From a virus: a stretch of 23,785 bases of DNA. A program made the translations under genes and the position numbers. The stretch lies in IMG/VR virus record IMGVR_UViG_3300032236_000938, positions 1 through 23,785 of that record. The stretch is one strand, 5' to 3'. Under the pieces are notes generated by a model, which saw only the letters and a list, made by a program, of their open reading frames with translations, was not told the origin of the DNA and made no database searches. This document shows, piece after piece, positions 2 through 23,785 of the stretch (position 1 is the first letter of the stretch; each line of letters begins with the position of its first letter).

Positions 2-1162
2 GGAACATTAAGTGGAAATACTATTTCGGGAGCAGGATTTATATTAAATTCTGGTGGCTTACAATTTAATTCATCAAGTACGACGGGAATAGTAAGCATA
101 GATGCACAATCAGGATTATTTACTGCAAGATCAGCAAAGCTAGGTGTGTCTGGATCAGAATGGTTTATAAATCCTTCAACAAACTCCGGATCAATTTATG
201 CTACATCAGGAACTGGAACAATATATCTTGATTCACAAAACACTAGAGTCTATGTTGCAAATGCATTAGGTGGATCTACAAATTATACAGCAGGAATAGC
301 TTTGCCTTCAACAGCATCTTCCCCTGTTATTTGGGCGGGAACAGCAGGTATTGCAAATACTGGAAGTGAATTTTTAGTAGACGCATCTGGAAACGTAACA
401 ATTAAAAGAGGTAATCTTGATATTGGTTCAGGTGGCGTAGGTGTTAAATTAACAGGTATAACAACAACTAAAGATAGTGTAACGATAGGCGTTTCATCAG
501 TAGCAGGAATAAGTGTAGGTATGTACTTATCAGCAGCCGGAGTACCATCAGATGCAACAGTTGCAACTGTAGGAACTTCAAGCATAACAATGTCAAAAGC
601 AAGCACTGCAACGGGATCGGCAACGGGATATTTTGCTGGAGCCGGAGCACACATATTTTCAGATGGATATTTAATAGCAACCAGTGCAAAAATATTCGGA
701 GACATTAACGCTACATCAGGAACATTTAGCGGAAATATTATTTCTACTGCAACAATTTATGGAGGTAAGCTTGCCGGAGGAGCAATTGAAGTCGGAGATT
801 CTGGAAATGGTCCATACTTCCTTCTTGATTCTGCAGGATCACCAAACGTAGTTAAAATAATGGGTAAGACCTACACAAGCTCAACAGCTCCATCGGGATC
901 TACTTCAATCAGTGCTCCTACAATAGCATTTACTTCGGGAGGAAAACTTACAATATCTAATGTTGACTACGTTGGAGATTTAACTAGTTCTCAAGTTCCT
1001 TCAGATAATGCAGGATCTTCAGGGTTTGTAAGAATGATAGCATCTAATCCACTTTCAGGATCATCAGGAAATCTAGAAAGAGGTCCAGCCATTTATTATC
1101 AAAGTGGAGGTACAGGACCAGTTAATGCCGGTTTCGTCGGAGATATCTGGATTCAATACTAA
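2..1162 (+). CDS. Phage tail-tip / tail fibre protein, 5' end outside window
   Basis: The frame is open from base 2 to the TAA at 1160-1162, so this is the last 386 codons of a longer protein whose start lies upstream; the GTG at 146 is only an internal codon. The sequence is low complexity and rich in Gly, Ser, Thr and Ala. It contains the A-T-S-G-T-F-S-G-N type motif (near 709-735) that recurs in C-terminal parts of siphovirus tail-tip and host-specificity proteins. A segment at about 440-640 (G-I-T-T-T ... I-S-V-G-M-Y-L ... G-V-P-S-D-A-T-V) resembles a beta module common in phage tail proteins. It overlaps the next tail gene by one base (TAATG). I infer a receptor-contacting virion protein; the exact structural role cannot be told without the N-terminus. 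Confidence 0.75.
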   Translation, partial: GTLSGNTISGAGFILNSGGLQFNSSSTTGIVSIDAQSGLFTARSAKLGVSGSEWFINPSTNSGSIYATSGTGTIYLDSQNTRVYVANALGGSTNYTAGIALPSTASSPVIWAGTAGIANTGSEFLVDASGNVTIKRGNLDIGSGGVGVKLTGITTTKDSVTIGVSSVAGISVGMYLSAAGVPSDATVATVGTSSITMSKASTATGSATGYFAGAGAHIFSDGYLIATSAKIFGDINATSGTFSGNIISTATIYGGKLAGGAIEVGDSGNGPYFLLDSAGSPNVVKIMGKTYTSSTAPSGSTSISAPTIAFTSGGKLTISNVDYVGDLTSSQVPSDNAGSSGFVRMIASNPLSGSSGNLERGPAIYYQSGGTGPVNAGFVGDIWIQY

Positions 1163-3525
1163 TGGCATTGTGGATTAAAAAAACAACGGGAACTACTCAG
1201 TCAAGCTGGAAAAATCCTTCTGCGGTATGGATTAAAAAAACAACGGGAACCACTCAAACCAGCTGGACAAAAGTAAAAAAGATGTATGTTAAAAAAGCGT
1301 CTGCAGCATGGGCATTGTTTTATCCAAATACTGGACCTTATATTGATACTGATGTTACTTTAACTAAAAGTACTCCTACGTCCCCAAGTTACACTGTAAC
1401 GCTTACAGGAACGAATAATAAATGGAGTACAAATACCGGAGAAGTTTATTACTTTAAGCATTCATCAGATGGCGGAACTACATATAATACTTTAAAAACA
1501 GGAACTGCAGTTGATTCAGGAGTTTACACTTATACCCTTTTAAATAATGGAACTGATGTTACTCCAAATGTTAACAATATATATGTATTTACAGTTGAAG
1601 CAACAGATTCAAGTGGAATTTCAACATCACAATCTAACTTAACTTCATTTGCTGGTGCTGAAAATATAACTATATCTCTTACAAGTAAAACTGCTAATAC
1701 TGCTATAATTAATTGGACAAGTGCTCCAAGTGCCAACAGATATATGGTTGAGTATAAAAAAGCTGCCGACTCATCTTGGACAACTTCTGGAAATGGAGCA
1801 GGAGGCCGGGCATCCAGTCCAGCAACCCTTACAGGTTTAACTCAAAATACACCATACTCAGTAAGAGTGATACCTTGGACGGGAAGCTCTGATAACACAG
1901 GTTACGCCGGAAATTATTCCAACACCCTTGCATTTACTACAAATCCAACTCCCCCTCCAACACAATTAACAAAACCAACTATATCCGGAACCGGGAAAGC
2001 ATTTACTTCTATTTCAGCTACTAGCGGTACATATCAATCAGGAACTTATTCAAGTAAAACCACTTCAATTGCTTATTATATTGGATCAATGCCATCTTTA
2101 ACCGATGGATTAACAACTTTAAATGCAAATGGAACTATATCCACACCACATAATGTAACTCAATCTGATGCTACAACTCCAGTCAGTTATTTTTATGCAG
2201 TAGATATAGTTACTACGGCAGACGGCACAATTTTTTATTTTTACAGTTCTGCAAATTTAAAAGCAACAGTTGGAACAATTACGGATGATTATTCAAGAAC
2301 TATTTCAACGGCGGGATCAAGTTTGGGAATAATGACTCCAGCTTCTAATTCGGTAATGTCTCCCAATTCTTATATTTACAATGGACCATCTACATCAAGC
2401 AATTGGAAAGTTGATGGACAGGTAGCGATAAATACTACAAACCCAGCAATTGGAAGCACAAATGCAGCAGCATATCCATTTCAAACTGTAGAGCTATCAG
2501 GAAAAACAGATCTTACGGTATCTGTAAATACATATTTATTAGCAGGTGCGGGAACAGGTGTAATGTTTTGGGCTGCTTCAACAGGAAGCTGGTATGCAGC
2601 ATCATCATACCAATATACAGGTACAGCTACAGTTTATACATGCAATCAAACAGGAGGAAGCAATACAACAGGTTGTCCCGCAGATAATTCAGGTGTAGCA
2701 AATGGAGTGTGTGGATGTACATCATCAACATCTTCAGATTACGCTTGCAATCAACCCGGAGGATCCGGAGTTTCAACGTGTACAAATGGATCAAATAGTG
2801 CCGGAGCAGTTTGTAATTGTACAGCAACAACAACTACTTCATGTTCAGGGCCAGGCTACACCGGGTACACAGATATCAGCTCTGCAATTGCTGCATGTGG
2901 TGCAGCATGTGTACAAACTTTACCGGGAACTACTACTTATGCTTTTTCAGGTGCTTCAAGTATCAACTATCCACCAGCACCAACTTCTTCTGTTTGCAAC
3001 TCTTCAACTGTTGGCTATACTCAAACCGGAAGCGTAGTTTATAGTAGTGGACTTTATAGATGGAATCAATGTACAGCAACATCAAGCGGTTCTACCTATG
3101 GATGCACACATTCATCTGTTTCTTCAACAACATATTCATACAATACACGATCAAGCACTCCAACAGTAACTACAACCTACACTTGGAAAACAAATGATTC
3201 AGGATCAACTGTTACAGCTTATTTAACTAATTTAAGAATATACGCTGCTTCCGGATCAACTGTTTCTATTTTATCAGATGTTACAAAAGCCAGCAGTACA
3301 TCCGGATACACATCTGTAGGAGGAATTAAGGTTGCTACAAGTGGAAATACTATTACTGCAGGGCTATATTCAGACTTAAACTTTGCATCTTTAATAAATA
3401 GCAATACTGTTTACACCGCAACAAGCCCAGTAAAAGCAGCTGCAAATGGTGCTTCATCAGCAGGAATATTTAAAGCGGGAAGCAACAATCAAGGAACTAC
3501 CTGGGATAACCTGTCTATAGTATAG
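1162..3525 (+). CDS. Large tail protein: repeated W-I-K-K N-terminus, Fn3-like domain, cysteine-rich insertion
   Basis: 787 aa, ATG overlapping the previous stop. Residues 1-57 hold two near-identical copies of W-I-K-K-T-T-G-T-T-Q plus a degenerate third copy (V-K-K-M-Y-V-K-K), like the short W/Y-x-K repeats at the start of many phage tail-tip proteins. Residues about 60-160 look like a beta-sandwich. Residues about 167-262 match a fibronectin type III domain (A-I-I-N-W-T, Y-M-V-E-Y-K, L-T-G-L-T, Y-S-V-R-V) followed by a Pro linker. From about 375 the protein resembles a concanavalin/laminin-G-like sandwich (W-K-V-D-G, V-M-F-W-A), interrupted at residues 494-648 by 14 cysteines, and resuming with W-K-T-N ... 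L-T-N-L-R-I-Y. Likely a receptor- or glycan-binding tail component (inference). No chaperone or enzymatic signature is seen. Confidence 0.8.
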   Translation: MALWIKKTTGTTQSSWKNPSAVWIKKTTGTTQTSWTKVKKMYVKKASAAWALFYPNTGPYIDTDVTLTKSTPTSPSYTVTLTGTNNKWSTNTGEVYYFKHSSDGGTTYNTLKTGTAVDSGVYTYTLLNNGTDVTPNVNNIYVFTVEATDSSGISTSQSNLTSFAGAENITISLTSKTANTAIINWTSAPSANRYMVEYKKAADSSWTTSGNGAGGRASSPATLTGLTQNTPYSVRVIPWTGSSDNTGYAGNYSNTLAFTTNPTPPPTQLTKPTISGTGKAFTSISATSGTYQSGTYSSKTTSIAYYIGSMPSLTDGLTTLNANGTISTPHNVTQSDATTPVSYFYAVDIVTTADGTIFYFYSSANLKATVGTITDDYSRTISTAGSSLGIMTPASNSVMSPNSYIYNGPSTSSNWKVDGQVAINTTNPAIGSTNAAAYPFQTVELSGKTDLTVSVNTYLLAGAGTGVMFWAASTGSWYAASSYQYTGTATVYTCNQTGGSNTTGCPADNSGVANGVCGCTSSTSSDYACNQPGGSGVSTCTNGSNSAGAVCNCTATTTTSCSGPGYTGYTDISSAIAACGAACVQTLPGTTTYAFSGASSINYPPAPTSSVCNSSTVGYTQTGSVVYSSGLYRWNQCTATSSGSTYGCTHSSVSSTTYSYNTRSSTPTVTTTYTWKTNDSGSTVTAYLTNLRIYAASGSTVSILSDVTKASSTSGYTSVGGIKVATSGNTITAGLYSDLNFASLINSNTVYTATSPVKAAANGASSAGIFKAGSNNQGTTWDNLSIV
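1171..1267 (+). repeat. Two 40-bp near-identical direct repeats in tail gene
   Basis: Copies at 1171-1210 and 1228-1267 (57-base period, 19 codons) both begin tggattaaaaaaacaacggg and end agctgga, with three base differences. They encode the W-I-K-K-T-T-G-T-T-Q-x-S-W units at the N-terminus of the tail protein. The near identity at DNA level suggests recent duplication or gene conversion. Confidence 0.9.
2641..3105 (+). other. Cysteine-rich insertion inside tail protein sandwich domain
   Basis: This stretch encodes residues 494-648 of the tail protein and contains 14 Cys in an otherwise Cys-free protein. Two tandem units follow C-x10-C-x10/11-C-x-C, each opening C-N-Q-x-G-G-S (Cys494 and Cys529), followed by a less regular part with C-G-A-A-C. 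The flanks look like two halves of one beta-sandwich domain. The even cysteine number and the spacing would suit disulfides or metal binding; neither can be decided from sequence. Confidence 0.7.
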
Positions 3526-10867: not shown

Positions 10868-13800
10868 ATGAATTTTACACACCTTCACGTTCACAGCCAT
10901 TACTCGCTGCTAGACGGCCTATGCTCTGCAAGAGAGCTTTTAGAGGCTGCTAAGGCAGCGGGTCAGACTGCTATGGCTATCACAGACCACGGCACCCTAG
11001 CCTCGCATAGAGAGATGCAGGTGGCAGCTAAAGAGTTGGGAATCAAACCAATCTTGGGACTTGAAGCGTACATATCCTCAACTGATCGCTTTGATAAACG
11101 TGATATTAAGAATAGAGATGATAACACTCAGGTATTCAACCATATCATTTTACTTGCAAAGAACAACGATGGATTAAAAAATCTACAAAAGCTTTCTGAG
11201 ATTGCTTGGACTGAAGGCTTTTATCGCAAGCCCCGAATTGACCTAGACGTACTTGATGAGTATGGCGACGGTCTTATTGTCTTGTCCGGATGTTTGAATG
11301 GACTTATTTGTAAAGCCATTGAGCGTGGGGATATGGCAAAAGCCGAAGAATACACTAACTGGTTTGCAAATAGATTCGGTGATGATTTCTATTTAGAAGT
11401 TCAGTCGCATAATCCAAAAGAAATTAACGAGGCTTTAGCTAAGTTATCTATTTCAAGTGGTGTTAAGATGGTAGCAACAGGAGATTGCCATTATGCAACA
11501 AAAGAGCAAAAGGCACTTGAAGAAGCACTGTTGATTATTTCATCTAAGCCTGATATTAATAAAGAGGCAACTTATGAGTCAGGCAAAAAGATTAAGAATA
11601 TCTACGAGAGATTTGACCATATCTATCCTGATCGCTTTATGTCGTTTGCAGATATTAATGTTTACATTCAAAGTTATGACGAAATCAAGGCAGATTTCGG
11701 GGATTCATTAAGCGAAGAGATTTATGAATCTTCAATGGAGATTGCAGATAAGGTGGAAGAATATGAATTTCACGAAAACCTACAATTGTTACCTAAGCCA
11801 AAAACAGACCCACACAAACAGCTTATTAAAATGTGTGAGGAATCACTTATTGAAAAAGGATTAGACAATGAGCAATACCGAGCAAGGCTTGAAGAAGAAC
11901 TTCAGGTCATTTATGATAAAGAGTTTAGTAGTTACTTCCTTGTTGTTGGCGACATGGTTCGTTGGGCGAAAGAGAATGAAATCCTTGTTGGACCGGGACG
12001 TGGATCTGCAGCAGGATCTCTAGTATGTTATTTGATGGGTATTACAGAGGTAGACCCAATTGAATATGACCTACTCTTCTTCCGATTTATTAACCCTGAG
12101 CGTAATGACTTCCCTGATATTGATACAGACTTCATGGATCGCCGTCGTGGAGAAGTAAAAGAATTTCTTCGTAAGAAGTTTAAGAATGTTGCATCCATCT
12201 CAACCTATCAATACTTTAAAGATAAAGGTGTTGTGCGAGATGTGGCAAGAGTATTTGACGTACCCCTAGGAGAAGTAAATAAGGCTTTGAAGGGAATTGA
12301 AACCTTTGAAGACTTTGAGAATAACCCTAACTCGCTTGAGTTTAGAGATAAGTATCCAGAGGTAGTAGATTTTGCTTCTAAGCTACGTGGCAGAATTAGA
12401 GGTGTGGGTATTCACGCAGCGGGAGTTGTTGTGGCAAAAGACTCCATTTCTAAATATGCTCCGATTGAAACTAGAAGCGATAAAGATGATTCAGTATCCG
12501 GACGTGTTCCTGTTGTTGCTTATGATATGGAACAGGCAGCAGATATTGGACTAATTAAGTTTGACGTGCTTGGCCTAAAAACTTTATCAGTTATTAAGGA
12601 TACTGTTGATATGATTCAAGAACGTCATGGAAAGGCTATTAACCTAAATAGTCTAAGCCTTGATGACCCTGAAGTGTTTCAGGATCTAAGCAATGGATAT
12701 ACAAAAGGCGTTTTCCAGGCAGAAGCAACTCCATATACTAACCTTCTGATAAAGATGGGTGTGGATAAGTTTGAGGACTTGGTTGCTTCTAATGCGCTGG
12801 TCCGTCCGGGTGCGATGAACACCGTAGGTGTCTCTTATATCAAGCGTAAGGGCGGGGAAGAAGTAATCTCTTATACCCACCCTGTTATGCAACCATTTAC
12901 TGAGAGAACCTATGGTGTTATCATCTACCAAGAGCAAGTTATGCAGGCATGCGTACATTTAGGCGGTATGTCATGGGCTGAAGCAGATAAAGTCAGAAAG
13001 ATTATTGGTAAGAAAAAAGATGCAAGAGAATTTGATGTATTTAAAGATAAGTTTATTGAAGGTGCTAAAAGATATATCTCAACTGAAGATGCGGAGAAGC
13101 TTTGGCATAATTTTGAAGCTCACGCTGGCTATTCTTTTAACCGTTCTCACGCTGTTGCTTACTCTATGCTTAGTTACTGGACTGCTTGGCTTAAACATTA
13201 TTACCCGCTTGAGTTCATGTTTGCAATCCTCAAGAACGAAGGAGATAAAGATGCGAGAACAGAATACCTCCTTGAAGCTAAGCGATTGGGAATTAAGGTC
13301 TTACTACCCCATGTAAATGAATCTGATTTGGATTTTAGCCTTCAAGGTAATAGTATTAGGTTTGGATTGGCAAATATTAAATATATATCTGAAGGTATAG
13401 GAAAGAAGATCATTGATGCAAGACCATTTAAATCTTTTGCTCACCTTATGGAAGTGGCTTCACAAAAGGGATCAGGAATTAACTCAAGAGCAGTTGCTAC
13501 CTTAAACCTAATTGGTGCTGCTGCTTTTGATGATAACGGCAGGTCGGGAAAAGAATCAGAAAGTTATTACGAATACTTAGGTATTCCAAAGTTTGATACC
13601 AAGGGAATTACCCCTTATATCAAGTCGCAAATTACTCCGCTAGAGGAGTTTTTAGAACAAGGTACATATGTATTGTGTGCTATGGTTAAATCAATTAAAA
13701 AGGGCAAGGGCTGGTCTCGTGTAGAATTAATTGATGATACAGGATCTATTGGTATTTTCCATACAGAGAATACACAAATTGAAACCGGGAACATGTATTT

Positions 13801-14134
13801 CTTCCTTGTTGGCGACAATAGAATTCATAGATATGTTACAATAGGTGATGTGGTTGACAAGAAGGATGACCCTTTTATTAGATACCTGCACAATAAAGAC
13901 TTAAGCATACCAGAGTATAAAGTTTATGTTGTAGACTTTACGCATTATAAAACAAAACAAAATAAAATGATGGCTCACATTATTTACTGCGATGCAGACA
14001 AAAACATGATGAGAGCTATTGCGTTTCCAAAGATTTATACAACAGCTTTAGGAAAAATGAGAGCGGGAGGATATAGTTCCCCTACCGTTGGAAAATTAGA
14101 TGATGGAACTAACTATATAAAGGAGATAGCATGA
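10868..14134 (+). CDS. dnaE: DNA polymerase III alpha subunit (C family, PHP domain)
   Basis: 1088 aa, close to bacterial DnaE (about 1160). The PHP domain at residues 1-280 contains the expected metal ligands: H7-V-H9, Asp16, T-D-H-G, G-L-E-A-Y, N-H-I-I-L-L, L-S-G-C, and G-D-C-H. The polymerase core has G-P-G-R-G-S-A-A-G-S near 376 and P-D-I-D-T-D-F with Asp417 and Asp419, plus K-F-D-V-L-G-L with Asp566, matching E. coli D401, D403 and D555. The fingers (Y-Q-E-Q-V-M, H-A-G-Y-S-F-N-R-S-H-A), helix-hairpin-helix region and C-terminal OB fold (S-R-V-E-L-I-D-D-T-G-S-I) follow. The internal clamp-binding motif and C-terminal tau-binding region were not identified. It is the phage replicase; ATGA overlap couples it to the next gene. 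Confidence 0.95.
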   Translation: MNFTHLHVHSHYSLLDGLCSARELLEAAKAAGQTAMAITDHGTLASHREMQVAAKELGIKPILGLEAYISSTDRFDKRDIKNRDDNTQVFNHIILLAKNNDGLKNLQKLSEIAWTEGFYRKPRIDLDVLDEYGDGLIVLSGCLNGLICKAIERGDMAKAEEYTNWFANRFGDDFYLEVQSHNPKEINEALAKLSISSGVKMVATGDCHYATKEQKALEEALLIISSKPDINKEATYESGKKIKNIYERFDHIYPDRFMSFADINVYIQSYDEIKADFGDSLSEEIYESSMEIADKVEEYEFHENLQLLPKPKTDPHKQLIKMCEESLIEKGLDNEQYRARLEEELQVIYDKEFSSYFLVVGDMVRWAKENEILVGPGRGSAAGSLVCYLMGITEVDPIEYDLLFFRFINPERNDFPDIDTDFMDRRRGEVKEFLRKKFKNVASISTYQYFKDKGVVRDVARVFDVPLGEVNKALKGIETFEDFENNPNSLEFRDKYPEVVDFASKLRGRIRGVGIHAAGVVVAKDSISKYAPIETRSDKDDSVSGRVPVVAYDMEQAADIGLIKFDVLGLKTLSVIKDTVDMIQERHGKAINLNSLSLDDPEVFQDLSNGYTKGVFQAEATPYTNLLIKMGVDKFEDLVASNALVRPGAMNTVGVSYIKRKGGEEVISYTHPVMQPFTERTYGVIIYQEQVMQACVHLGGMSWAEADKVRKIIGKKKDAREFDVFKDKFIEGAKRYISTEDAEKLWHNFEAHAGYSFNRSHAVAYSMLSYWTAWLKHYYPLEFMFAILKNEGDKDARTEYLLEAKRLGIKVLLPHVNESDLDFSLQGNSIRFGLANIKYISEGIGKKIIDARPFKSFAHLMEVASQKGSGINSRAVATLNLIGAAAFDDNGRSGKESESYYEYLGIPKFDTKGITPYIKSQITPLEEFLEQGTYVLCAMVKSIKKGKGWSRVELIDDTGSIGIFHTENTQIETGNMYFFLVGDNRIHRYVTIGDVVDKKDDPFIRYLHNKDLSIPEYKVYVVDFTHYKTKQNKMMAHIIYCDADKNMMRAIAFPKIYTTALGKMRAGGYSSPTVGKLDDGTNYIKEIA

Positions 14135-20306: not shown

Positions 20307-20827
20307 ATGAAATAGAATCGCTCAAAGAAGACTTTGAGCAAATGAACAATGTTGTTGCAGAGTTCATTAAAGGAAATAGCCCAACCCAAATTGCTAAACA
20401 ACTTGCATTAAAGCCAGTACAGGTTACACAAATATTAGCCAACTGGCGTGAACTTATGCAGGGAGACACGGGTATTCGTGAAAGAGCAAGAGAAGCCCTT
20501 GGTGCTGCTGATCAACATTACTCCATGATTATTAAAGAAGCCTGGGAAACAGTACGTCAAGCAGACGTTCAAGATGCATTAAATGTTAAAGCCCAATCAT
20601 TAAAGCTTGTTGCAGATGTTGAGCAAAAAAGAATTGACATGCTTCAAAAAGCGGGAGTGCTTGAGAAGAATGATATGGCAGATCAAATTCTTGAAACCGA
20701 AAGAAAGCAAGAAATCCTAGTAGGTATATTAAGGGATGTAACTTCAAGTTGCGATACATGCAAGCAGGAAGTTGCTAGAAGATTAAAAGATGTAACTGGT
20801 CGTGTAGAGGTAATTACAGTTGAATGA
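20303..20827 (+). CDS. terS: Putative terminase small subunit
   Basis: 174 aa. Residues 21-48 contain a helix-turn-helix (F-I-K-G-N-S-P-T-Q-I-A-K-Q-L-A-L-K-P-V-Q), followed by long helices (A-R-E-A-L-G-A-A-D-Q-H-Y ... V-K-A-Q-S-L-K-L-V-A-D-V-E-Q-K-R-I-D-M-L-Q-K-A-G-V-L) typical of the oligomerisation region. A C-x2-C (C-D-T-C) lies near residue 150. The gene directly precedes and overlaps the large terminase by 8 bases, which is the usual place for the DNA-recognising small subunit. Small subunits are poorly conserved, so this assignment depends on the HTH and the position. Confidence 0.72.
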   Translation: MNEIESLKEDFEQMNNVVAEFIKGNSPTQIAKQLALKPVQVTQILANWRELMQGDTGIRERAREALGAADQHYSMIIKEAWETVRQADVQDALNVKAQSLKLVADVEQKRIDMLQKAGVLEKNDMADQILETERKQEILVGILRDVTSSCDTCKQEVARRLKDVTGRVEVITVE

Positions 20828-22670
20828 TTTTGGTGATTTTTTAGAAGCACTTGAAGAAGATGCTTTTGAGGAAATTCCTGTAGATATTGAGGAGTTTGTA
20901 ACCTCAAAAGATTATCTTGGCCTACCGCCTTTGTCTGACTATCAGTATCAGATGATTAAGGCATCAAGTCAGATTTACAAAAAAGAAACATTAATTAAAC
21001 TATACGGGGAAACTGAAGGACTCAAGCGTTGGGGACAAACTTGTAATGAAGTTATCTTCCAGCTCGGTAAGGGTTCAGGAAAAGACTATACTTCTACGAT
21101 TGCATGCTCATATATAGTTTATCTTCTTTTATGCTTAAAAGATCCAGCCAGATATTATGGCAAGCCTCCCGGTGACTCTATTGATATTATTAACGTTGCT
21201 ATTAACGCAGTTCAAGCACAGCAAGTTTTCTTTAAGGGCTTTAAGAATCGTATTACCCGATGCAAATGGTTTGCAGGAAAGTATGATGAAAAAGTTGGAA
21301 GCATCAATTTTGACAAATCCATTACAGTACACTCAGGTCACTCACAAAGAGAGTCTTGGGAAGGATACAACCTTTTGTTTGCGGTACTTGATGAGATTTC
21401 AGGCTTTGATCTAGATTCTACTAGCGGTAATGAGCAGGCTAAGACCGCATCTGCTATCTATAAGATGTTTAGAGGATCAGTAGATTCACGTTTTCCACAG
21501 TTTGGAAAGCTTGCATTGCTTTCATTCCCACGATTTAAAAACGACTATATTCAGCAAAGATATAATGAAGTTGTTGCTGAAAAAGAAATTGTAATTAGAA
21601 AGCATAAGTTTAAGATTGATATAGATTTGCCGGACGGGATCAAAGAAAATGAATTTGAGATTGAATGGGAAGAAGATCATATCATTAACTATTCAGTACC
21701 TAGAGTGTTTGCACTCAAAAGACCTACATGGGAAATTAATCCTACTATTCACATAGAAGACTTGGCAAGCAACTTCTACGCAGATCCAGTTGATGCATTA
21801 TCTCGTTTTGCATGTATGCCTCCAGAAGCTGTTGATGCATTGTTTTCTTCTCGTGAAAAAGTAGAAAAAGCATTCAATAATTTAAATGTAGCACTAGATG
21901 ATAATAATTCTTTTAGAGACTGGTTTAAGCCTGATCCAGAAAAAGCTTATTATATTCACGTTGACTTGGCGTTAAAGCATGACCATTGTGCCGTATCTAT
22001 GGCTCACGTTGACCGTTGGGTTACTATGAAAATGTCGGGAGCGTATACAGATGCTCAGCCATATGTTGTGGTAGATGCAGTAAGATATTGGACTCCTACA
22101 AAAGAAAAGGTAGTTGATTTTACAGAAGTTAAAAACTATATAATTAGTTTAAAGCAAAGAGGATTTAACATTAAGCGTGTAACATTTGACCGATGGAATT
22201 CATATGACATGATGGAGCAGTTAAAGTCATACGGAATGAACTGTGAGGTATTGTCTGTTGCTAAAAAGCATTATGAGGATATGTTATTAGGCGTAATGGA
22301 AGAAAGAATATCTGGACCAAAACTAAATCTTTTAATTGATGAGCTTCTTGAATTAAGAATTGTTAAAAAAGATAAGGTTGATCACCCACGCAAAGGCTCA
22401 AAGGATTTGGCGGATGCGACTTGCGGAGCAATTTATAATGCGATATCATTAACTCCTAAAGGTGACAACGAGGTTCAAATTTACTCATATGATCAGTATG
22501 AAGAAAATACGCTAGAAGAAATTCAAGCGGGACACAGAACTGATAATACTATCAGAACACCTCCAAAGAATTCAATGCCAGCAAACCTCAGAGACTATCT
22601 AGGAATAGATGACGATGATGATGTAATGCCGGGAGAGACTGGATTCGTAGACAACTTTACCATATTGTAG
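20820..22670 (+). CDS. terL: Terminase large subunit
   Basis: 616 aa from TTG 20820, overlapping the small subunit. Walker A Q-L-G-K-G-S-G-K-D-Y-T-S lies at about 81-92 and Walker B F-A-V-L-D191-E192-I-S-G-F with the catalytic Glu next to Asp. The arginine-rich region follows (V-D-S-R-F-P-Q, L-S-F-P-R). The C-terminal RNase H-like nuclease contains Asp382 (Y-I-H-V-D-L-A-L), D-R-W-N-S-Y-D near 460 and a late K-D-L-A-D-A. The ATPase pumps DNA and the nuclease cuts concatemers. An insert at about 100-180 and the long C-terminal acidic stretch (D-D-D-D-D) make it larger than common 450-550 aa types. The 11-base TTG context has only weak ribosome-binding similarity. Confidence 0.93.
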   Translation: MNDFGDFLEALEEDAFEEIPVDIEEFVTSKDYLGLPPLSDYQYQMIKASSQIYKKETLIKLYGETEGLKRWGQTCNEVIFQLGKGSGKDYTSTIACSYIVYLLLCLKDPARYYGKPPGDSIDIINVAINAVQAQQVFFKGFKNRITRCKWFAGKYDEKVGSINFDKSITVHSGHSQRESWEGYNLLFAVLDEISGFDLDSTSGNEQAKTASAIYKMFRGSVDSRFPQFGKLALLSFPRFKNDYIQQRYNEVVAEKEIVIRKHKFKIDIDLPDGIKENEFEIEWEEDHIINYSVPRVFALKRPTWEINPTIHIEDLASNFYADPVDALSRFACMPPEAVDALFSSREKVEKAFNNLNVALDDNNSFRDWFKPDPEKAYYIHVDLALKHDHCAVSMAHVDRWVTMKMSGAYTDAQPYVVVDAVRYWTPTKEKVVDFTEVKNYIISLKQRGFNIKRVTFDRWNSYDMMEQLKSYGMNCEVLSVAKKHYEDMLLGVMEERISGPKLNLLIDELLELRIVKKDKVDHPRKGSKDLADATCGAIYNAISLTPKGDNEVQIYSYDQYEENTLEEIQAGHRTDNTIRTPPKNSMPANLRDYLGIDDDDDVMPGETGFVDNFTIL

Positions 22671-22676
22671 GAGAAC

Positions 22677-22907
22677 ATGTTTAAGCGTAAAAATAAGATA
22701 GATTATGAATCTTTATACCATGATTCTCAGCAAAAATTAAGTTTCTATGTGAACGCATTAGAGACAAAACAAATGCAATGTGATAAAATAGAGTCTATTG
22801 CTGAATCTCTTAAAGAAGAAAATCAAGCACTCAAAGATAAGCTTTCTAAAATAGAAAAGCAATTATTAGATTTGCCTAAATTATTGGGTAAAAACCTAGG
22901 AAAATAA
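22677..22907 (+). CDS. Small coiled-coil protein, 76 aa
   Basis: ATG 22677 six bases after the terminase stop, with AGGAG at 22669-22673. Basic N-terminus (M-F-K-R-K-N-K), then a long helix with heptad Leu and Ile (I-E-S-I-A-E-S-L-K-E-E-N-Q-A-L-K-D-K-L-S-K-I-E-K-Q-L-L-D-L-P-K-L-L). There are no enzymatic motifs. It lies where a portal or other packaging accessory gene would be expected, so it may be a small assembly or scaffold factor, but the sequence gives only the coiled coil. Confidence 0.72.
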   Translation: MFKRKNKIDYESLYHDSQQKLSFYVNALETKQMQCDKIESIAESLKEENQALKDKLSKIEKQLLDLPKLLGKNLGK

Positions 22908-22928: not shown

Positions 22929-23785
22929 ATGAAGACAACAAAGAAGATCGCAATTGCTACCGCTGCAGCCCTAGCAATGTTTGGCATCTCATCAATCGCA
23001 CATGCTGCTCCGCTTGCAGTTACAGTAGCAAGTGCAGCAAACACAACAACTTCTGCAGCACCAGCAACGGTGGCAGTACCAGTATCAAATGTAATTGATT
23101 CTTCAAATACAGTAGCACTTGCTGCTACAGCAGATACTTCAACAACAATTTCTTTTGTTGCATCAGGCGTAAAGCTTGTTTCAGCACTTAACACATCTCT
23201 TGCACCAGTTTCTGTTGCATCAGGCGTATCATCACTTCTTGTAACATCAACTGGTGTTGCAGCAACTGTCTATGCGTACACAACCTCAACATCTGTTGGA
23301 TCAGTTACCATTACAAATGGTGCATATTCAACCATTGTTTACATTAAGGGTACAGCAGGAGTTGCAGCAAATATTGCTGTAGCAGTGCCATCAGCAACAG
23401 CAGTCGGAACTGTCCCAGCAATTTCTGTTTCAGCGACAGACGTATTTGGAAATCCTGTTGCTTCTGAGGGTATTTCTGTAACTTTGATTGGTTCAACATT
23501 CTCTGATTCATCAATCACAAAGACACTTACAACCTCTTCAGTTACTTCTGCAGCAGGAGTAGCCCCAGTAACAGTCCTTGGCTCAGCAACAGGAACACTT
23601 GCTACAGCAGTAGCAGGAACAGTAACTGTAGTCGCAACAGATGCTTCAATTGCAGCAACTGCAACAGGACTTCCTGCAGCAGTTAAGTCAGCAATTGCAA
23701 CATTCTCAGTATCTGATCTTGGTGCACAGATTACTGCATTAAATGCACAGGTTGCATCACTTACCTCGCAACTTGCATCAGCAAA
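22929..23785 (+). CDS. Secreted S-layer-like protein with Big-like domain, 3' end outside window
   Basis: ATG 22929 with AAAAGGA just before; the frame is open to the window end (285 codons, no stop). A classic Sec signal peptide is visible: M-K-T-T-K-K, hydrophobic 7-23, and A-H-A|A-P cleavage after residue 26. The mature part is Ala/Thr/Ser/Val-rich. A bacterial Ig-like (Big-1-like) segment I-S-V-S-A-T-D-V-F-G-N-P-V-A-S-E-G is at about residues 161-177 and a coiled coil begins near residue 262 (L-G-A-Q-I-T-A-L-N-A-Q-V-A-S-L-T). This resembles abundant cell-surface proteins of Actinobacteria rather than a known virion protein. The G+C of sampled 60-base lines here is 43-50% (23041 and 23581) against about 32% in the line at 22741, and its codon use differs. 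A moron gene acquired from the host is likely (inference). Confidence 0.75.
   Translation, partial: MKTTKKIAIATAAALAMFGISSIAHAAPLAVTVASAANTTTSAAPATVAVPVSNVIDSSNTVALAATADTSTTISFVASGVKLVSALNTSLAPVSVASGVSSLLVTSTGVAATVYAYTTSTSVGSVTITNGAYSTIVYIKGTAGVAANIAVAVPSATAVGTVPAISVSATDVFGNPVASEGISVTLIGSTFSDSSITKTLTTSSVTSAAGVAPVTVLGSATGTLATAVAGTVTVVATDASIAATATGLPAAVKSAIATFSVSDLGAQITALNAQVASLTSQLASA

Follow-up and report, generated by a model that had tools for sequence, protein, structure and literature searches.

A secreted phage protein family with two Ig-like domains

We describe a family of phage-encoded exported proteins, found in several hundred freshwater phage contigs or more and yet uncatalogued in the protein-family libraries that we searched, which join a cleavable Sec signal peptide to two Ig/Big-like domains, a predicted helical stalk, and a strongly basic C-terminus. 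Covering the surface of the infected cell or blocking superinfection is the best inference that its sequence allows regarding function, and we tentatively favor an abundant exported surface protein that would alter phage adsorption, either against rival phages or by sparing the phage's own progeny from cell debris.

The gene and its surroundings in the window

The analyzed window comprises 23,785 bases and is the complete IMG/VR record, a linear fragment. The secreted gene, the small ORF before it, and TerL lie on the plus strand. At the right end of the window, an ORF that is open at the contig end (22,929 to 23,783) encodes the first 285 residues of the secreted protein. It is preceded by the gene of the large terminase subunit TerL (20,820 to 22,670, TTG start; PHROG 2, E 1e-17), but a coiled-coil-like ORF of 76 amino acids, the position of which is conserved in relatives, separates the two (22,677 to 22,907), so that the secreted gene does not directly follow the terminase as had been thought. 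This small ORF has a G+C content of 27% and TerL one of 37%, neither of which is the 32% attributed earlier to the preceding gene, while the secreted gene reaches 44.0%. Because many independent contigs repeat the order of TerL, an ORF of 76 to 82 amino acids, and the secreted gene, the contig is not chimeric around position 22,900, which the original prediction had named as a finding that would speak against it. In record G012, the ORF in the corresponding position has gp161 of phage Gilson as a match (E 4e-12).

TerL is 64% to 66% identical to its counterparts in Gilson and other Streptomyces phages of the Stanwilliamsviridae, and the gene order of RuvC, glycosyltransferase, heptose kinase-like protein, FmdB-like protein, and TerL is common to Gilson as well, which places these phages among Stanwilliamsviridae-like actinophages by both homology and gene order. 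WhiB, a mark of actinophages (PMC10202952), is encoded in 13 of 16 related records. Given these likenesses, the host is very probably an actinobacterium; its assignment to acI (Nanopelagicales) is a guess based on the habitat and the low G+C content. Elsewhere in the window, a tail-like protein of 787 amino acids (1,162 to 3,525) matches the fibronectin-like N-terminal domain of purple acid phosphatase just under the cut-off and contains a cysteine-rich stretch (CNQTGGSNTTGCPADNSGVANGVCGC). A protein of 1,088 amino acids (10,868 to 14,134) begins with what by eye resembles the PHP domain of DnaE-type DNA polymerase III alpha, and a gene of Gilson at a comparable place carries the annotation DNA polymerase.

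Domain architecture of the secreted protein

The window protein starts with a Sec signal peptide (residues 1 to 26, 22,929 to 23,006; N-terminus MKTTKKIAIATAAALAMFGISSIAHA, followed by APL after the cut) in which AHA occupies residues 24 to 26, precisely where cleavage had been predicted. The tripartite n-h-c organization with an AxA motif recurs, though the letters vary, in all 119 full-length members that we compiled from alignment A1 (42/42) and from a second subfamily (77/77 among the matches listed), as judged by a pattern test for a basic N-terminus, a hydrophobic core, and AxA and not by SignalP. The mature part consists of ectodomain D1, a beta sandwich and the most conserved part of the protein (residues 27 to 145, 23,007 to 23,363), ectodomain D2, which is Ig/Big-like (residues 146 to 262, 23,364 to 23,714), and the start of a long helix that is predicted to form a coiled coil (residues 263 to 285, 23,715 to 23,783). 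Judged by its relatives, the whole protein has about 350 to 370 amino acids; most full-length relatives measure around 345 to 377 and continue this helix over about 90 residues, up to around residue 352, before ending in a basic tail that closes on lysine.

These boundaries follow an AlphaFold2 model of the L011 relative, which is 90% identical to the window protein (pLDDT 78, pTM 0.58). The model displays two beta-sandwich domains (about 30 to 142 and 148 to 262), one long helix (264 to 352), and a short basic tail, the placement of which relative to each other is uncertain. Structural comparison with VIA-align found tandem Ig-like beta sandwiches of the type known from invasin (1cwv, Z 10.8 over residues 27 to 264) and intimin (Z 9.8); since the rmsd to 1cwv is 7.8, the invasin match holds domain by domain and not for relative domain placement. 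D2 alone (residues 143 to 264) reaches Z scores of about 10 to other Ig-like domains at an rmsd of 2 to 2.6. The best Foldseek matches, transglutaminases and complement, were put aside as generic Ig-like likeness. By sequence, the protein is far less recognizable: Neither the window protein nor any of seven relatives matched a Pfam Big family (Big_1/Big_2) at E<=1, no S-layer or wall-binding family (SLH or similar) was detected at E<=1 in Pfam and NCBIfam, where all matches were low-scoring and mostly to coiled-coil families, and the PDB sequences searched with A1 gave nothing beyond weak coiled-coil matches. The earlier description of an Ala/Thr/Ser-rich, phage-borne secreted protein with a Big-like segment and a coiled coil holds well, given the clear signal peptide, homologues in phages, and the fold matches.

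Cysteine is absent from 118 of the 119 full-length members, and with it the cleavage-site Cys of a lipobox; none of the 119 has an LPxTG-like motif or a C-terminal hydrophobic stretch, and no likely transmembrane segment was found beyond residue 30. The last residue is Lys or Arg in every one of the 119, and the last 15 residues carry a median net charge of +5. That no lipid anchor, sortase anchor, or membrane span was found counts toward a role at the surface, and the basic tail as a wall anchor is our guess.

The layout invites comparison with known surface proteins. Like the bacterial adhesins invasin and intimin, the protein has two tandem Ig-like domains in a cell-surface layout, but it shows no Pfam Big match at E<=1, has no outer-membrane barrel, and its Ig domains lead into a helical stalk with a basic tail. 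With bacterial S-layer proteins it shares the signal peptide, the richness in Ala, Thr, and Ser, and likely abundance. Unlike in S-layer proteins with SLH, searches of Pfam and NCBIfam revealed neither an S-layer homology domain nor another that binds the wall; many S-layer proteins have no known domains.

Family size, conservation, and distribution

A first scan found close relatives in at least 84 IMG/VR contigs, of which 80 were kept, and a distant member led to the second subfamily, which is matched by at least 414 stretches of the same database. The family is absent from Pfam, NCBIfam, PHROGs, and INPHARED, tblastn against the INPHARED phages gave no match, and a search of open-licence papers found no description of it. 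Between the subfamilies, D1 is 42%, D2 33%, the stalk 32%, and the tail 46% identical, and mean pairwise identity of D1 within A1 is 0.74. The dN/dS ratio of the secreted gene is about 0.27, and the gene is therefore under purifying selection.

One copy of the gene was found in each of the first 16 long records; in two of them it is split into two matches. Among 20 records derived from TerL searches, many of which are fragments, 7 contain the gene. Universal presence in related phages was rejected because the long records G587–G589 (79 to 95 kb, related, possibly incomplete) have neither an A1 match nor a similar exported protein by the pattern test. The secreted gene is thus accessory in these phages.

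Codon usage close to that of virion genes

In three relatives of 107 to 120 kb, we scored all main-strand genes of at least 150 codons for the likeness of their synonymous codon usage to that of the major capsid gene after subtracting the contribution of amino-acid content. The secreted gene ranked 3 of 54, 3 of 64, and 6 of 62 (z 10.3, 6.3, and 4.5; uncorrected ranks 2, 3, and 4), in two of the three directly under the capsid and major tail proteins. The reference capsid and tail-tube genes had been assigned by their place in the gene order and by homology to Gilson gp220 and gp214, which are annotated as “virion structural protein” and “protein with Ig domain”, respectively. In the same long relatives, lysine is encoded almost exclusively by AAG and ATA never occurs in the secreted gene; in the second subfamily, AAG makes up 93% of lysine codons among the matches listed. 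Since codon usage near that of the major capsid protein implies high expression, these data suggest that the secreted protein is made at the level of virion proteins, an investment that, to our knowledge, phages rarely spend on an exported protein.

Composition and cellular relatives

The original prediction had read the composition of the gene as host-like and suggested capture of a host cell-surface gene, and signal peptide and Ala/Thr/Ser-rich layout indeed resemble those of secreted bacterial proteins. The G+C content of 0.440, however, compares to 0.454 predicted from its amino acids and the window's own codon usage, so that it is the high content of Ala, Thr, Ser, and Val that explains the value, and GC3 lies below expectation (0.168 versus 0.232). 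The gene does lack the NCG-GGA codon pairs, as had been noticed, but this means little because only about one would be expected there: The remaining 7,341 codons of the window contain 33, of which 14 fall into the two leftmost tail-like genes; 7 of the 33 lie in the gene at 1,162 to 3,525. We therefore rejected the argument for host capture from composition.

Searches for cellular relatives gave a similar picture. When 84,980 cellular species were scanned with a pattern, a type of search that detects close relatives only, none was found; the one weak match was an actinobacterial lipoprotein-like protein with a Big-like motif (L082, 37% over 72 residues). Profile searches with A1 yielded five weak matches and nothing convincing among 396 actinobacterial genomes, none identified as acI, and again nothing convincing among 198 genomes of the order of G330, mostly large and likewise none identified as acI. 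The four matches other than L082 aligned over the coiled-coil end, did so in differing frames, and were regarded as chance hits. Together with codon usage that matches the phages' own highly expressed genes and a family that is large, diverse, and of phages, these results make recent capture of a host S-layer gene very improbable. Capture may have happened anciently, as the genomes searched by profile include none identified as freshwater acI.

Exchange of the gene between phage lineages

The secreted gene occurs in two genomic settings. In one, it stands behind TerL, and the genes after it often encode a PnuC-like membrane protein, a CHAP endolysin, an exported PA14 protein, and small membrane proteins; in the other, it lies away from TerL and has thioredoxin, an exported subtilase, or a proteasome-like gene as its neighbor. 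Downstream of the gene in the first setting, the exported PA14-domain proteins span about 900 amino acids (L021:10071–12851 and L003:9254–11965) and are followed by small membrane proteins that resemble holins. Exported subtilase-like proteins of the same phage group are encoded at L066:6158–7273, L075:6150–7271, and L108:18531–19418, with an S8 match for L066 as the one searched, and a small protein resembling a proteasome beta subunit stands beside a thioredoxin-like gene at L014:7227–7769 and L011:7359–7913 (Pfam Proteasome E 0.0026, below the cut-off, for L014 as the one searched).

Over 171 record pairs, TerL identity and secreted-protein identity show only a weak correlation (r 0.32). 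The L031/L048 pair shares 56% identity in TerL and 86% in the secreted protein, and its DNA match of 84% stops at the stop codon without including neighboring genes; in three further pairs, the match extends from about 15 to 17 bases before the ATG to within 6 bases of the stop. Altogether, the secreted genes of such pairs are 80% to 84% identical in DNA beside TerLs of around 56% protein identity, and in the reverse case TerLs of 95% to 96% identity accompany secreted proteins that are 63% identical, as in L005/L048 (96% and 63%). These discordant identities and matches that end at the gene edges show that the gene is swapped between phage lineages as a one-gene cassette, which is what one would expect if a gene for surface recognition were under pressure from an arms race. 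In L153 (11114–12766), the slot behind TerL encodes an exported protein of 550 amino acids whose ectodomain is unlike that of the family but whose C-terminal tail, AWNKAHPTKKVALKK, is similar; it was found in two contigs only.

Discussion

When the secreted protein is made, in what amount, where it is anchored, and what it does are our inferences from the features described above. The gene would be expressed late and in very large amounts, and its product would be exported by the Sec pathway and cut between AHA and the following alanine, leaving a helical stalk that bears two Ig/Big-like domains at its outer end, while the strongly basic, Lys-ended C-terminus would probably hold the protein to the negatively charged cell wall. 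Attachment of phages to the infected cell or its remains would thereby be altered, most likely such that rival phages are kept off the cell or that released progeny are kept from binding the host surface again. We prefer a change in adsorption, though with less than even confidence, because it best explains abundance, export, exchange, and accessory status together. Known superinfection-exclusion lipoproteins of phages such as Llp of T5 and Ltp of TP-J34 are likewise phage-encoded and exported and act at the cell surface, as this protein might; unlike them, it has no lipobox, is cleaved at AxA with no Cys in 118 of 119 members, and combines two Ig-like domains and a stalk with virion-level codon usage. 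Two points sit less well with a change in adsorption: The gene was not found in G587–G589, and in the classic picture of an arms race over receptor blocking, D1 would not be more conserved than the stalk. As a bolder extension, which we regard as rather unlikely, the phages might coat the infected cell with a layer of their own protein, exported at the level of virion proteins, and pass the coat gene between lineages in the manner of a serotype cassette; coat type and not lineage would then decide which phages can occupy a cell together or enter it again.

A structural protein would be expected to show high codon adaptation just as well, and the secreted protein could instead be an accessory virion component, i.e., an Ig-like decoration or fiber that is first exported and then joins the particle, for instance by attaching to virions upon their release. 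Ig-like domains are common in virion proteins of tailed phages such as T4 Hoc or major tail proteins, viral folds were among the structural matches, and likeness to these proteins extends to probably high expression. The original prediction would have yielded to a typical virion component with homologues in phages only, and such homologues are all that we found, but the cleavable Sec signal of all 119 members removes the protein from the cytoplasm where tailed phages assemble. Encoded as a separate gene with a signal peptide outside the head and tail block, it is also distinct from the Ig-containing tail protein homologous to Gilson gp214 that these phages already have, and we consider a place in the virion unlikely. 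We see the same low probability for an adhesin that sticks infected cells or debris to other cells or particles and so helps progeny reach hosts; a stalk with exposed Ig domains is an adhesin layout and invasin and intimin are among the closest folds, but Ig-like folds are generic, and the hosts, if acI as we suspect, are free-living plankton. Still less probable is a wall-spanning helper of the adjoining endolysin and membrane proteins in lysis or envelope remodeling, as the many records with such neighbors stand against many others of the second setting and the gene is accessory among related phages.

With the swapped cassette, protein type could be related to host range or to superinfection groups in metagenomic data. 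If confirmed, virion-level expression of this exported protein would show how phages of abundant freshwater actinobacteria take control of the cell surface late in infection.
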